From: Halocatena pleomorpha | GTDB taxonomy: Archaea > Halobacteriota > Halobacteria > Halobacteriales > Haloarculaceae | Direction: 5' to 3' | DNA: 64,000 nt | Assembly (NCBI RefSeq): GCF_003862495.1 | Contig: NZ_RRCH01000003.1 | Coordinates: 372,001-436,000 of the forward strand | Shown: piece by piece, positions 19,605-24,916 of the stretch | How the letters are laid out: the number at the start of each line of letters is the position of its first letter | Numbering within the stretch: the first letter of the stretch is position 1 | The notes under the pieces: generated by a model | The model's database searches: none | Seen by the model: the letters and a program-made list of their open reading frames with translations, nothing else | What the model was told of the DNA's origin: nothing | Program-made: the position numbers and the translations under genes

Positions 19605-21398
19605 TTACACGACGTAGTAGTCGTTGGCCGATTTTTGTTCCCGATCCTTCTGGCTCCCAGGTTTGTTCGCTCGCGGGCGGCCAGTGGTTGGATCCTTCCG
19701 GAAGGTTACGCCCACGGTCTGTAAAAACCGGTTTATTCCGTGGTGGACGGGCTGCGGAGACCGCCCGATCCCTCGCGTTCCGGGGTCGCCCTCGAACACC
19801 ACGGCCCGGTCGGAAACGTAATCAAGAAGGAGTAAATCGTGCTCGATAACGAAGCAGTACACGTTCTCTCGCGTGACGAACTGGCGCAGCGTCGCACCGA
19901 ACGCCGTTCGTTGCTGGGCGTCGAGATACGCAGACGGCTCGTCCAACAGATACAGCTGTGCGTCTCGACCGAGCGCGAGCGCGATGCTCACTCGCTGTAG
20001 CTCACCGCCGGAGAGATCCGCCACTGTTCGTTCCGACAAAGAATCGAGATCGAACGACTGCCGCAGATCGGTTTCGACCGTTCGACTGGAGACATCAAGG
20101 GCGCTGGCGAACAACTCTTCTACCGTCCCTTCGAAGGCGGGTTGCAGATACTGGGGTTTGTACGAGACCCTGACATCGGTGCCGATCTCTCCCTCGTCTG
20201 GCGTGAGAACGCCTGCAAGCAGCTTTGCGAACGTCGTTTTTCCCAGCCCGTTTCGACCCAGAATGCCGAGAACTTCACCGTCCCGGAGCGTTCCCGGTTC
20301 GACGCGCAGTGAAAACGACTCGAATGACGTTTTCAGCGTCGGAAATTCGAACGCGTCAGTTCCGCGATCGGCGGGGCGTGTAGAGTCCTGAAGGAAGTCG
20401 ATCGCCTGTTCCCGGATCCGGACGTTTTCATCGCGCAAATAGCCATCGAGAAACTGATTGATCCCGCGCCGGGTTGAAAGCGGCCGTGAGACAACCCCGA
20501 ACCCCGCCGGTTCACCGTACACCACATGAACGCTGTCAGCGACGACATCCAGCGTGATGAGGTCGTGATCGACAACAAGTGCCACCGAGTCCCCTGTGAA
20601 CTCCTGTATTGTTTGGGCGACCGTCAGCCGTTGATCGACATCGAGATACGACGACGGTTCGTCGATCAGATACGTGTCGGCGTCAGCCACGAGCGTCGCA
20701 GCGACCGCAACACGTTGTAACTCGCCGCCGGAAACGTCATCGACGCGCCGGTCGGTGAGCGCAGTGAGATCGAGGCGTTCGAGGAGCGCATCACCCACGC
20801 CTCGTTCGTCGCGGTCACCGAGGAGATCCCCAACGGTGCCGTCGTACTGATCGTGAATCCGATCGATCCGCTGGGGTTTGTACGCCGTTCGAACGGTTCC
20901 GTCCCGGAGCCGTTCGAGATACGTCTGGACAGCAGTACCGCGAAATTCACGAACGATGGTGTCCCACCCCGGATCAGCCGCGGCGTCTCCGAGATTTGGT
21001 TTCAACGATCTGCTGAGAATGCCGAGCGCAGTCGATTTGCCGACGCCGTTCGGACCGAGCAAGCCGACGACACGCCCCTCGGACGGTCCGGGCAGTTCGT
21101 AGAGGCGAAAGCCGTTGTCTCCGAACTGATGGACCAACTCACCGCGTTCAGCGGGAAGCTGCACGATCTCGATCGCGTCAGTGGGAATCTTGTTTGCAAC
21201 GATCTTGTGCTCCTCGATCACTACCTCGTCGTTGATGTGTAACTCCCCGTCGTCTGTCAGGTGAAACCCCTCATCCTGCCCCGTCTGATTCAGGGGATCG
21301 TATTTCAGCGCGATGTCTCGAACCTCGTCGGTGACCATCTCCTGATCGATCACCGCCACGTACTTATCTTGTTGCGCTGATGTGGTGGGGTCTCCCAT
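19605..21398 (-). CDS. ABCE1/Rli1 paralogue lacking all Fe-S cysteines
   Basis: A 597-residue twin-ATPase protein. Both nucleotide-binding sites look intact: Walker A GPNGVGKST (115-123) and GRNGLGKTT (381-389), SGGELQR signatures (223, 463), Walker B LIDEP and LLDEP, and H-loops VVDHD and VIEHD. The N-terminal region aligns with Rli1 (YVAVIDQE, YDPLN, IVANKIPTDAI), but every cysteine of the two [4Fe-4S] clusters is replaced; the only cysteine is in the second ATPase (C515). True ABCE1 splits ribosomes in termination and recycling; this copy may act on ribosomes in another way, or regulate. ATG 21398 gives the conserved N-terminus. Confidence 0.9.
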   Translation of the reverse strand: MGDPTTSAQQDKYVAVIDQEMVTDEVRDIALKYDPLNQTGQDEGFHLTDDGELHINDEVVIEEHKIVANKIPTDAIEIVQLPAERGELVHQFGDNGFRLYELPGPSEGRVVGLLGPNGVGKSTALGILSRSLKPNLGDAAADPGWDTIVREFRGTAVQTYLERLRDGTVRTAYKPQRIDRIHDQYDGTVGDLLGDRDERGVGDALLERLDLTALTDRRVDDVSGGELQRVAVAATLVADADTYLIDEPSSYLDVDQRLTVAQTIQEFTGDSVALVVDHDLITLDVVADSVHVVYGEPAGFGVVSRPLSTRRGINQFLDGYLRDENVRIREQAIDFLQDSTRPADRGTDAFEFPTLKTSFESFSLRVEPGTLRDGEVLGILGRNGLGKTTFAKLLAGVLTPDEGEIGTDVRVSYKPQYLQPAFEGTVEELFASALDVSSRTVETDLRQSFDLDSLSERTVADLSGGELQRVSIALALGRDAQLYLLDEPSAYLDAQQRTAFGATLRQFVTRENVYCFVIEHDLLLLDYVSDRAVVFEGDPGTRGIGRSPQPVHHGINRFLQTVGVTFRKDPTTGRPRANKPGSQKDREQKSANDYYVV

Positions 21399-21549
21399 GC
21401 GAACGAGTAGTGGACCGGACCACAAGTGAATTTCTGCGGCTCCGCGCTCGGACGGCCATCGATGACCCGATCGGAGTGCAGTAGTTGTAATTGAAGGGGA
21501 ACCGGGTAGCTATGGCGATCGATACTGCATGTTGAGCACACCGGTGGGA

Positions 21550-22359
21550 CTACAGGGACAGCGTCGACGCGGGGGCTGTTGGCGAGACGGACGACGTTTC
21601 GATGAGCGTGGATCTGATGAGCGTGTCGTGCCCCCGGCGCAACCGTTCGGAAAGGGCCTGGTGCGAGACGCTCATCTTGTCCGCCAGTTCCTCAAGCCCG
21701 ATTTTCCGGGGAACGTCGAAATACCCGTGTCGACACGCCTGCGTGAGAACCCGGTGCTGTGCCGGTGTCAGTCCACACTGGACCATCCGATCGGAGTCAA
21801 GTGAGCGAATCGTATCGATCGTAACGGAAAGCCCGTAGCGCTCACAGCACTCCGTCGCGGTTCGAACATCCTCACGGGTGGGATAGAGAACTTCGACGGC
21901 CCATCCTGACCGGGTGCCGCGGTTGCTGAGCAGGATTCCCTGCGATTGAAGAAGGATTTCGATGCAGCGGTGAACGTTGTGAGTCCACTCCACCCGATAT
22001 AAGCACCGATCGTCAGATTGACACAGCTCTTTAGCAGCAAACACGGTCGGGTCATCATTCAAGATGCCTGTCAGATCAGCTTCGTCAGTGCTGGCCCACA
22101 ACATAGACATGTTGGCTGTCTCGCCCGCCGCTACAAGCGGAGCACACTCGACGGTGAGATCCGGCACCGTGGCAAACGTTTCGTGCAACCCGAACGCTTC
22201 GGTCGGAAGCCGCCCACACACGAGCGTGCTTTCGTCTCCTCGGCCGATCCCAGCGATCTGGTTCGCGTTTCGATCCGTTCGAATGCCCATGTCCGTCTGA
22301 TCGGGTGACTCGCCGGTAAGTATTTCCTTGATCATCTTACTATTAATTCTCTCTTCCAT
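21550..22359 (-). CDS. Bat-type HTH-10 transcriptional regulator
   Basis: A 269-residue haloarchaeal regulator with an N-terminal sensory region containing several cysteines and a C-terminal HTH-10 domain: LTPAQHRVLTQACRHGYFDV, then LEELADKMSVSHQALSERLRRG and a short helix ending IRSTLIE. This layout is shared with the bacterioopsin activator Bat and its many paralogues. Signal and targets are unknown. It is followed by 65 nt and a second, paralogous regulator upstream, so the two probably arose by tandem duplication. Confidence 0.88.
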   Translation of the reverse strand: MEERINSKMIKEILTGESPDQTDMGIRTDRNANQIAGIGRGDESTLVCGRLPTEAFGLHETFATVPDLTVECAPLVAAGETANMSMLWASTDEADLTGILNDDPTVFAAKELCQSDDRCLYRVEWTHNVHRCIEILLQSQGILLSNRGTRSGWAVEVLYPTREDVRTATECCERYGLSVTIDTIRSLDSDRMVQCGLTPAQHRVLTQACRHGYFDVPRKIGLEELADKMSVSHQALSERLRRGHDTLIRSTLIETSSVSPTAPASTLSL

Positions 22360-22424: not shown

Positions 22425-23102
22425 TCACTCCTCGCTCGCCGCGCTGTCGCTTGTTGTGTTCGAAATGAGCGTTTCCCGGACCAGCACGGAGAGACCACGA
22501 CGGAGGCGCTGTGACAGCGCGGAATCGCTGATATCCATCGCGTCAGCGAGGTCAGTTACGGAACTGTCTCGGGGGACGTTGAAGTAGCCCTGTCGATACG
22601 CCTCCGTGATCGCTTCTCGTTGTTTGGTTGATAACGACGGGTCGTCGGTCGATTCGGCCGAACTGTGCAACTGCCGGAGCAACAGGGGGATACCATGATC
22701 GGTAACGGCTTGATTGAACGCCGTGAGATCCTCGTGAGTCGCAAAGCGAAGCCGAAACCGCCACTCCTCGGCGGTGCCTTCGGCTTTAAGCAGACGGGCA
22801 TCCGTGTCGATCATGATCCGGATGAGTCCACCGATTTCCGTTTGCCAGTGGACTTCGAACAGTTCCTCATCGTTCGCCGTCGAAATGGTTCGAACGAGTT
22901 CCGTCTGTGAATGCTCCTGAAGCGCCGCTTGCACCGCCGATGGATCGTCGTGTGATAGCCACACCAACGGCAACGGCTCGGAGCGGAGTGGCACGACCCG
23001 CTCAAGCCGAACGCTAAGACCCTGAAACTCACTGAACACCCGTCCCAGTTCGAAACTCTCAGCAGGGATTGTGATATCAACGACGATGTTTGTATCAGTC
23101 AT
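22425..23102 (-). CDS. Bat-type HTH-10 transcriptional regulator (second copy)
   Basis: A 225-residue regulator from ATG 23102 (MTDTNIVVDITIPAESF). The N-terminal 150 residues form the Bat HTH-associated sensory domain (GRVFSEFQGLSVRLERVVPL, FEVHWQTEIGG), and the C-terminus is HTH-10: REAITEAYRQGYFNVPRD, LADAMDISDSALSQRLRRG, LVRETLI. It shares the spacing of these motifs with the adjacent protein at 21550-22359. The upstream ATG at 23141 would lengthen it by 13 residues with no conserved content. Confidence 0.88.
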   Translation of the reverse strand: MTDTNIVVDITIPAESFELGRVFSEFQGLSVRLERVVPLRSEPLPLVWLSHDDPSAVQAALQEHSQTELVRTISTANDEELFEVHWQTEIGGLIRIMIDTDARLLKAEGTAEEWRFRLRFATHEDLTAFNQAVTDHGIPLLLRQLHSSAESTDDPSLSTKQREAITEAYRQGYFNVPRDSSVTDLADAMDISDSALSQRLRRGLSVLVRETLISNTTSDSAASEE

Positions 23103-23313
23103 GTGTTCGGAGTGTTGCTGTATGGTTGCTACTGATAACAAAGAATATAGAACCTTCGATATTCAAGGATTATATAAAATATGCCGCCGTACCACTCCGG
23201 GGTCTCGGTGGCGACCGGGGCTGGATCCTGCCGTCCCCGCGTGTCTCGACAGGTTGCTTTCGATTACTCACCGAGCGGACAGTATTTACGACTCGGCGTC
23301 GTAGTCCCCGTCA

Positions 23314-23748
23314 ATGTCCCGGAACATTCTCGTTCCGATCGATAGCTCCGAGCAATCGCGCGAGGCATTGGAGTACGCGCTGACCGAACACGCTGAGGAC
23401 GACATCACGGTCATTCACGTTCTGGATCCTGTCCAGCAGCACGCTTACGGCGGAATCGAAGGGGGTGGGATGGTGAGTTACGAAGCCATTCAAGAACAAC
23501 GACAGCAAGAGGCCCAACAGCTGTTGGCGGAGGCGACCGAACGGGCCGACGCCCACAACGTTGGCATTGACACCGAAATACAAACCGGATCAACCAAACG
23601 CGCCATCGTGGCGTACGCTGACGACCACGGGATGGATCACATCGTTATTGGAAGCCACGGCCGTTCCGGTGCGAGTCGTATCCTCCTCGGAAGCGTCGCC
23701 GAAACGGTTGCTCGCCGGTCATCAGTGCCAGTTACCATCGTTCGGTAA
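23314..23748 (+). CDS. UspA-family universal stress protein
   Basis: A single-domain 144-residue Usp: MSRNILVPIDSSEQSREALE, ITVIHVLDP, and the ATP-binding G-x2-G-x9-G-(S/T) motif GSHGRSGASRILLGSVAETV close to the C-terminus. The motif suggests nucleotide binding. It lies 25 nt upstream of a MOT1-type transporter, and these small Usp proteins often accompany transporters. Divergent Bat-type regulators sit on the other side. Confidence 0.9.
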   Translation: MSRNILVPIDSSEQSREALEYALTEHAEDDITVIHVLDPVQQHAYGGIEGGGMVSYEAIQEQRQQEAQQLLAEATERADAHNVGIDTEIQTGSTKRAIVAYADDHGMDHIVIGSHGRSGASRILLGSVAETVARRSSVPVTIVR

Positions 23749-23773
23749 GCATCGCACAGTGAGACGCTGAACA

Positions 23774-24916
23774 GTGACGATCCCTGCGCCGCAGGCCAGG
23801 AAACACAGGGGTGTTCGAACGGTGTCTTTCCTGAATCGGATCGACCATCAACGACTCGCCTTCGGTTCGAACGAGATCACAGGAGCGATCGGTGATTCGA
23901 TCACGGTGTTGCCGATCGTCGTCGCTCTCGGACTCGTGACCGATGTCTCGGTGCCACACGTGCTGGTGGCCTTCGGCGTCTTCCAGATCATCTGGGGAAT
24001 CAGATACGGCCTGCCCGTTTCGGTCGAACCGATGAAGGCGTTGGCCGCCCTCGCTATCGCTGGAACGCTCACATACGCTGAACTCGCCACCGCCGGGGTG
24101 ATACTGGGCGTCGTGCTCCTCGTGATCGGTCTCGGGGGCGTCTTAGCAGCCGCCGAACGCTGGATCGGAACGCCGGTCGTCCGAGGCGTGCAGTTCGCAG
24201 TCGGGTTGCTCCTCGTTGAAACCGGTCTCCACCTCGCCAGCGACCGGTGGGTTCTCGCCGGCGTGGGGGCGCTGATCGTCGTCGTGCTCATCTGTGCAGG
24301 TTCGAAAAACGTGAGCGCGCTCGCCGTCCTGACCGTCGGGATAACGATTGCCATCGTGACAGCAGGACTACCGGCACCCCACTGGCCGGGACCGCCGCCA
24401 ACGCCGTTCACAACTGGGATCACGTGGACTACTGCGGACGGCGTGGTTGCGCAGTTGGCGATGACGATTGGGAACGCGGCACTCGCAAGTTCGCTGTTGA
24501 TCGCTGATCGCTTCGGAGAAGATGTCACACCCGACGAACTGTCGACGAGCATGGGGATGACGAATCTGGTGGCGATTCCAGTCGGTGGAATCCCGATGTG
24601 CCACGGCTGTGATGGGATCGCGGGAAAACACGCGTTCGGCGCGCGAACAGGCGGTGCGAACGTCGTCGTCGGGTTGTTTTATCTTGGGATCGCGCTTTTC
24701 ACGACAGCACCGCTGCTACGCGCGTTTCCAGTGGCGATGCTCGGCGTATTGCTCGTGATCATCGGGGCGTCGCTGGCGACGAGCGTCCTGCGCTCCTCGA
24801 ACCGTCTGCTCTCAGCAGGTATCGGAGTGGTGGCGATCCTCGTGGGTCTCGGCGTCGCGTTCGCTGTCGGAATCCTCGTGCACCTAACCCTGGAACGAAC
24901 GACCGCTGAAAACTGA
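23774..24916 (+). CDS. MOT1-type sulfate/molybdate transporter
   Basis: A membrane protein of 380 residues from GTG 23774, or 364 from GTG 23822 (MSFLNRIDHQRLAFG), which starts closer to the conserved region. It has the internal two-fold pattern of the MOT1/SulP-related group: GDSITVLPIVVALG, YGLPVSVEPMKALAALAIAG in the first half and NAALASSLLIADRFGE, PMCHGCDGIAGKHAFGARTG in the second. Ten or so TM segments are visible. The family transports molybdate or sulfate; the substrate here is inferred. It is in an apparent operon with the UspA gene. Confidence 0.85.
   Translation: MTIPAPQARKHRGVRTVSFLNRIDHQRLAFGSNEITGAIGDSITVLPIVVALGLVTDVSVPHVLVAFGVFQIIWGIRYGLPVSVEPMKALAALAIAGTLTYAELATAGVILGVVLLVIGLGGVLAAAERWIGTPVVRGVQFAVGLLLVETGLHLASDRWVLAGVGALIVVVLICAGSKNVSALAVLTVGITIAIVTAGLPAPHWPGPPPTPFTTGITWTTADGVVAQLAMTIGNAALASSLLIADRFGEDVTPDELSTSMGMTNLVAIPVGGIPMCHGCDGIAGKHAFGARTGGANVVVGLFYLGIALFTTAPLLRAFPVAMLGVLLVIIGASLATSVLRSSNRLLSAGIGVVAILVGLGVAFAVGILVHLTLERTTAEN

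Follow-up and report, generated by a model that had tools for sequence, protein, structure and literature searches.

A cysteine-free homologue of ABCE1/Rli1 encoded by an accessory, mobile gene in Halobacteria

Judged by its sequence, a 597-residue protein of Halocatena pleomorpha is an ABCE1/Rli1 homologue by descent and architecture that lacks the Fe-S feature by which this family is defined. Its gene lies in the 64,000-nucleotide stretch of DNA analysed here (the window) and belongs to a cysteine-free type of Rli1 that is accessory and mobile, unlike canonical Rli1, which is universal. The gene and its parts are located in the window as follows, with residue numbering of ABCE1 positions (Sso) referring throughout to the Sulfolobus protein (6tmf chain d):

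19605..21398 including the stop, minus strand: cysteine-free ABCE1/Rli1 homologue, 597 aa (RLI model and PDB matches)
21159..21371, minus strand: N-terminal domain, ~residues 10-80, at the place of the Fe-S cluster domain (alignment to 6tmf chain d and 88 relatives)
20499..21140, minus strand: NBD1, ~residues 87-300, with Walker A GPNGVGKS, Q-loop, signature SGGELQR, catalytic Glu and H-loop present (alignment)
20889..20981, minus strand: ABCE-specific helix-loop-helix (HLH) in NBD1, ~residues 140-170 (alignment; motif role according to PMC7196836)
19779..20366, minus strand: NBD2, ~residues 345-540, with Walker A GRNGLGKT, Q-loop, SGGELQR, catalytic Glu and H-loop present (alignment)
19608..19757, minus strand: hinge 2 and C-terminus, TFRKDPTTGRPRANKPGSQKDREQK..YY (alignment; rRNA contacts according to PMC7196836)

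The open reading frame runs on the minus strand from an ATG at 21398 to the stop at 19605; an alternative TTG start at 21425 would lengthen the protein, and relatives begin at the same ATG as 21398. The protein matches the NCBIfam RLI model NF009945 with 700.8 bits (E 1.5e-210; cut-off 469 bits) and its top PDB relatives are the archaeal ABCE1 structures 3j15 and 3bk7. This score and ranking rule out membership of another ABC family, which the initial annotation had named as an outcome that would overturn its assignment. Both ATP sites are complete with respect to Walker A and B, signature, Q-loop, H-loop and catalytic Glu, as had been read from the sequence before. The ABCE1/Rli1 hallmarks outside the ATP sites, the HLH insertion and hinges 1 and 2 with their rRNA-contact residues, are likewise present: hinge 2 retains R565, R572, R574, K577, S580 and R584 (Sso numbers), and the HLH retains R144, with E147 replaced by Ala.

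What is missing is the set of eight cysteines that characterizes ABCE1/Rli1. The single cysteine of the window protein lies at about residue 515 in NBD2, residues 1-115 contain none, and the positions of Sso C11, C16, C20, C24, C51, C54, C57 and C61 are occupied by V, V, A, D, V, H, V and I, respectively. The earlier observation that none of the Fe-S cysteines is kept thus holds in the alignment (0/8), and neither the Pfam model Fer4_RLI nor Fer4 matches the protein. Among 45 aligned proteins, Fer4_RLI matches 31, which equals the count of canonical and one-cluster proteins (described below), while Fer4 matches 27, the count of canonical proteins alone. The replacements recur throughout the cysteine-free set of the alignment, which comprises 22 distinct, intact sequences drawn from numerous assemblies. 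All 22 carry A for C20, D for C24, H for C54 and I for C61; V stands for C11 and for C51 in 21 of 22 each, V or I for C16, and I or V for C57. Whole-gene dN/dS of the cysteine-free proteins is 0.08-0.19; for the N-terminal domain, 10 of 11 compared pairs give 0-0.13, usually below the values of the NBDs. The domain is thus retained by strong purifying selection and is not decaying. The initial annotation had allowed that the protein might be the only Rli1 of its genome, stripped of its cysteines by sequencing errors. An in-frame stop in one chromosomal copy (G281) and a frameshift in another (G080) could be cited in favour of such an artefact or of a decaying gene, but the window copy is intact, dN/dS is far below 1, and the sharing of replacements by 22 different intact sequences excludes chance or sequencing error. 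We therefore regard sequencing error or pseudogenization as ruled out, with a probability next to nil.

Nor is the window protein alone in its genome. An eight-cysteine Rli1, for which the initial annotation had suggested a search, is encoded on the same contig (G000:C23:107168-108967) and is ~47% identical to it; a further Fer4_RLI match in the genome (G000:C22) falls within a short ORF other than an Rli1 gene, which presumably encodes a Tsr3-like protein. A second Rli1 of the cysteine-free type occurs in 13 of the 292 sampled genomes of the class, spread over four families, with carriers such as Haloferax denitrificans, Haloferax sp. Q22, Halorubrum amylolyticum, Natronomonas sp. LN261, Halosimplex aquaticum and Halobacteriales archaeon YIM A00010. 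Canonical Rli1 turned up in every carrier that was either queried for it with a canonical sequence or displayed in the phylum search. Eight plasmid records also hold the cysteine-free gene (Natronococcus, Haladaptatus, two Natrinema, two of Haloarcula sinaiiensis, Haloprofundus and a Haloferacaceae isolate), where its annotation reads just "ribosome biogenesis/translation initiation ATPase RLI"; two additional plasmid matches at 44% identity look canonical by identity. The two copies of Haloarcula sinaiiensis are near-identical and lie on separate plasmids, NZ_CP073368.1 and NZ_CP073371.1 (L097, L098). Phages and IMG/VR viral contigs gave no match to the cysteine-free type at the sensitivity used. 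The two broken chromosomal copies are what would be expected of an accessory gene.

The closest phylogenetic neighbours of the cysteine-free proteins come from four genomes of two deep-branching sister families, each with a single Rli1 match (G021 of one family; G218, G286 and G605 of another), the INTERMEDIATE set, with loci L064, L057, L058 and L120, respectively. A canonical N-terminus used as query in three of these four genomes retrieved no other Rli1. C11, C16, C20 and C61 persist in all four proteins; C24, C51 and C54 are lost from every one of them, and C57 from three. In the ferredoxin pattern, cysteines 1-3 of motif 1 together with cysteine 4 of motif 2 hold one cluster. In yeast, cysteine 3 of motif 1 and cysteine 3 of motif 2 belong to different clusters (PMC4523923; positions mapped in this analysis). 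The retained residues fit the ferredoxin pattern, which suggests that exactly one cluster has been kept and one lost, and these Rli1 proteins thus appear to have ligands for a single [4Fe-4S] site. They share the replacements of C24 by Asp, C51 by Val and C54 by His with the cysteine-free proteins. As no canonical Rli1 was found in their genomes, this one-cluster form may be more striking than the cysteine-free protein itself. A DUF502 gene adjoins the one-cluster Rli1 of G218 (L118:5965-6720), and the Natrinema DC36 plasmid has another (L153:22725-23402) at a distance of ~1 kb from its cysteine-free Rli1; these are the only two DUF502 cases.

A tree built from the NBDs only places one-cluster and cysteine-free proteins in one clade (100/100), with canonical haloarchaeal Rli1 set apart (100/99), a grouping to be read with the caveat of long stem branches; a stem branch of 0.49 was measured, and identity to canonical haloarchaeal Rli1 is ~45%. 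This grouping indicates that cluster loss was probably stepwise. The cysteine-free proteins form a single clade in 52% of bootstraps (AU p 0.526), so that either one or two losses of cluster I are conceivable. In the aEF2 tree, the four one-cluster genomes form the sister group of the remaining sampled Halobacteria; taken together with the NBD clade, this would fit acquisition of the gene from this sister group or from one of its relatives, or else an old duplication that was sorted differently. The initial annotation's term, an Rli1 paralogue, is right as to family, and the tree gives no support to the window gene being a simple duplicate of the resident one. We also rejected vertical orthology with the canonical gene, given the separate clade shared with one-cluster Rli1, the patchy distribution and the plasmid-borne copies.

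ABCE1 is anchored via hinge 2 and the HLH, and closure of the NBDs pushes the Fe-S domain against h44 (PMC7196836). The key positions of Walker A and B, signature, Q-loop, H-loop and catalytic Glu are invariant in all 22 cysteine-free proteins, as are R565, R572, R574, S580 and R584 of hinge 2, N305 and N316 of hinge 1 and R144 of the HLH; K577 is retained in 17 of 22 proteins, among them that of the window. The N-terminal residues that face h44 or h5 are altered, K15 to Glu (22/22), N17 to Arg (20/22) and R2 to Tyr (22/22), the last being already Ser in canonical haloarchaeal Rli1, and E147 of the HLH is lost. AlphaFold models, calculated from alignments built without the rows of plasmid-record proteins, give the cysteine-free N-terminal domain a pLDDT of ~70-89 in blocks 11-80, and the corresponding domain of a one-cluster protein modelled without its cluster ~46-70. 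The window model aligns with full-length ABCE1 structures such as 3bk7, 3jag and 7o80 at TM 0.85-0.93, and with the two ribosome-bound ones (3jag, 7o80) at ~0.9 over the whole model. The cysteine-free N-terminal domain is thus predicted to fold into a wedge without the help of a cofactor.

The surroundings of the gene differ between two clades of cysteine-free Rli1, A and B. In the window, which represents clade A, two regulator genes lie upstream on the same strand:

21550..22359, minus strand: HTH_10/BAT-type regulator (Pfam; synteny with L005)
22425..23141, minus strand: second HTH_10/BAT-type regulator (Pfam; synteny with L005)

This pair is conserved only in the closest relative and was discarded as a general partner of cysteine-free Rli1. 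A universal stress protein gene and a MOT1-type molybdate transporter gene are found nearby (23314-24916, plus strand), and no denitrification genes were found near these two. Apart from the universal stress protein gene, the immediate neighbours include no genes of the clade B islands, and the window genome gave no match to DUF2249 or NirK at the thresholds used. In clade B, DUF2249 genes lie within 10 kb of the cysteine-free gene in 6 of 13 carrier genomes, with 0.27 expected (P ~6e-8, for cases that are not independent, two being sister Haloferax species); canonical Rli1 is not near DUF2249 wherever both positions are known. All DUF2249 genes of Haloferax mediterranei go up under denitrification (PMC11218638). 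The plasmid islands further contain a ric Fe-S repair gene or hemerythrin/DUF542, metal-dependent regulators, TusA, DsrE, cupins and a truncated haemoglobin, the ric/hemerythrin Fe-S repair genes lying 12-15 kb from cysteine-free Rli1 on two plasmids. Neither NirK nor ScdA_N/RIC qualifies as general context: NirK lies within 20 kb of the cysteine-free gene in two genomes only (G190 and G173), and ScdA_N/RIC, present in 4 of 13 carrier genomes, is near it (~13 kb) only in G238. The published denitrification motif CGAAYATDKTYG is not enriched upstream of cysteine-free genes over canonical ones. On the whole, the clade B neighbourhoods point to anaerobic or denitrifying islands rather than to iron starvation or oxidative stress, a context that clade A lacks. 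Other features of these regions include a tryptophan--tRNA ligase gene 5-9 kb from cysteine-free Rli1 on the Haloprofundus and Natrinema zhouii plasmids (L152:26672-27847, L155:10249-11430) and repeated genes for CGCGG family rSAM-modified RiPPs, together with DUF2249 genes, in the plasmid islands L152 and L153. Three NirK-family matches contain one internal in-frame TGA (G102:C2:1369184-1370119, G016:C22:8153-9088, G167:C6:101720-102655).

We lean slightly towards the reading that the gene encodes a mobile, accessory, cluster-free ABCE which still acts on ribosomes and serves as an Fe-S-independent backup of recycling under stress. A divergent Rli1 lineage would have lost the second [4Fe-4S] cluster first and the first one afterwards, while the N-terminal domain was rebuilt such that it folds without iron. 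Alongside ordinary Rli1, the protein would then most likely perform ATP-driven ribosome splitting and 30S anchoring, and it could sustain recycling in conditions that destroy clusters or prevent their assembly, such as nitrosative, oxidative or iron stress. Since [4Fe-4S] clusters are destroyed by nitric oxide, a cluster-free Rli1 in denitrification-linked islands would make sense. Against this stand the partly altered 30S contacts of the Fe-S domain (K15, N17, R2) and the loss of E147, and, as to the stress role, a denitrification-linked context that is confined to clade B and absent around the window gene. Moreover, cluster-free splitting is not a given, since loss of one ligand of both clusters is lethal in yeast whether oxygen is present or absent (PMC4523923). 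The fuller claim, that ABCE splitting can dispense with Fe-S clusters, such that a stepwise-evolved, plasmid-spread and iron-independent recycling ATPase keeps translation going and a sister lineage lives on one-cluster Rli1 alone, is put forward tentatively and falls somewhat short of an even chance.

A competitor or parking factor, which would bind 30S or idle 70S via hinge 2 and the HLH without productive splitting, is a serious rival, even if we consider it rather unlikely. Such a protein could slow recycling or initiation, protect idle subunits under stress or serve its carrier plasmid. It would account for retained hinge 2 contacts next to an h44-facing residue of switched sign (K15 to Glu, 22/22), for a canonical Rli1 always alongside where both were sought, for the accessory, plasmid-borne nature of the gene and for its two broken chromosomal copies; it is harder to reconcile with the invariance of both catalytic glutamates and the ATPase motifs, with an N-terminal domain, the moving part in splitting, that is constrained at least as strongly as the NBDs in most pairs, and with closest relatives that are the sole Rli1 of their genomes. 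Function as a neofunctionalized ABC ATPase away from ribosomes seems improbable: the ~45% identity, the stem branch of 0.49 and variable monitoring residues in NBD1 would allow it, but nearly every residue by which hinges 1 and 2 contact the ribosome is invariant. A shade more improbable still is a domain that binds another metal or cofactor, in which Zn or Fe would be held by the Asp (for Sso C24) and the His (for C54) that occupy the site of the lost cluster II and are invariant in 26 of 26 cysteine-free and one-cluster proteins; these are just two potential ligands, which may form a mere salt bridge, whereas the other cluster II positions are mostly V, I, M or S and the cluster I positions V, V/I, A and I.

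ABCE1 ranks with the most highly conserved archaeal and eukaryotic proteins, and its clusters have been called essential, yet without a redox role (PMC8153317). The proteins reported here provide a natural series of two, one and no cluster ligand sets in an otherwise intact machine, which makes it directly testable why a translation ATPase depends on oxygen-sensitive clusters; nature may already have run a test of the need for these supposedly essential cofactors. The RLI database label conceals proteins that are unable to bind clusters, and in the open-access papers searched, which cover part of the literature, we found no report of a natural ABCE1 without one or both of them. ABCF proteins, such as EttA and the antibiotic-resistance ABCFs, are also twin ABC ATPases that work on ribosomes, but their similarity to the window protein is much weaker (best ~1e-27, versus 1e-163 for ABCE1), and it falls far under the cut-off of the ABCF models (EttA, ribosomal protection). 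Plant ABCE2 is likewise encoded by a second ABCE gene of its genome (PMC9618717; PMC7839781), though its function as a silencing suppressor needs the Fe-S domain (PMC7839781), for which the cysteine-free protein lacks the ligands. One-cluster Rli1 stands nearest in phylogeny and differs in keeping C11, C16, C20 and C61 and in being the sole Rli1 found in its genomes. With canonical ABCE1/Rli1 (NF009945; PDB 3bk7, 6tmf, 3ozx) the window protein has in common the twin NBD motifs, the HLH, the hinges, the C-terminal signature and the predicted fold, and it departs from this family in its rebuilt N-terminal domain with none of the eight Fe-S cysteines and in being accessory and mobile instead of universal.
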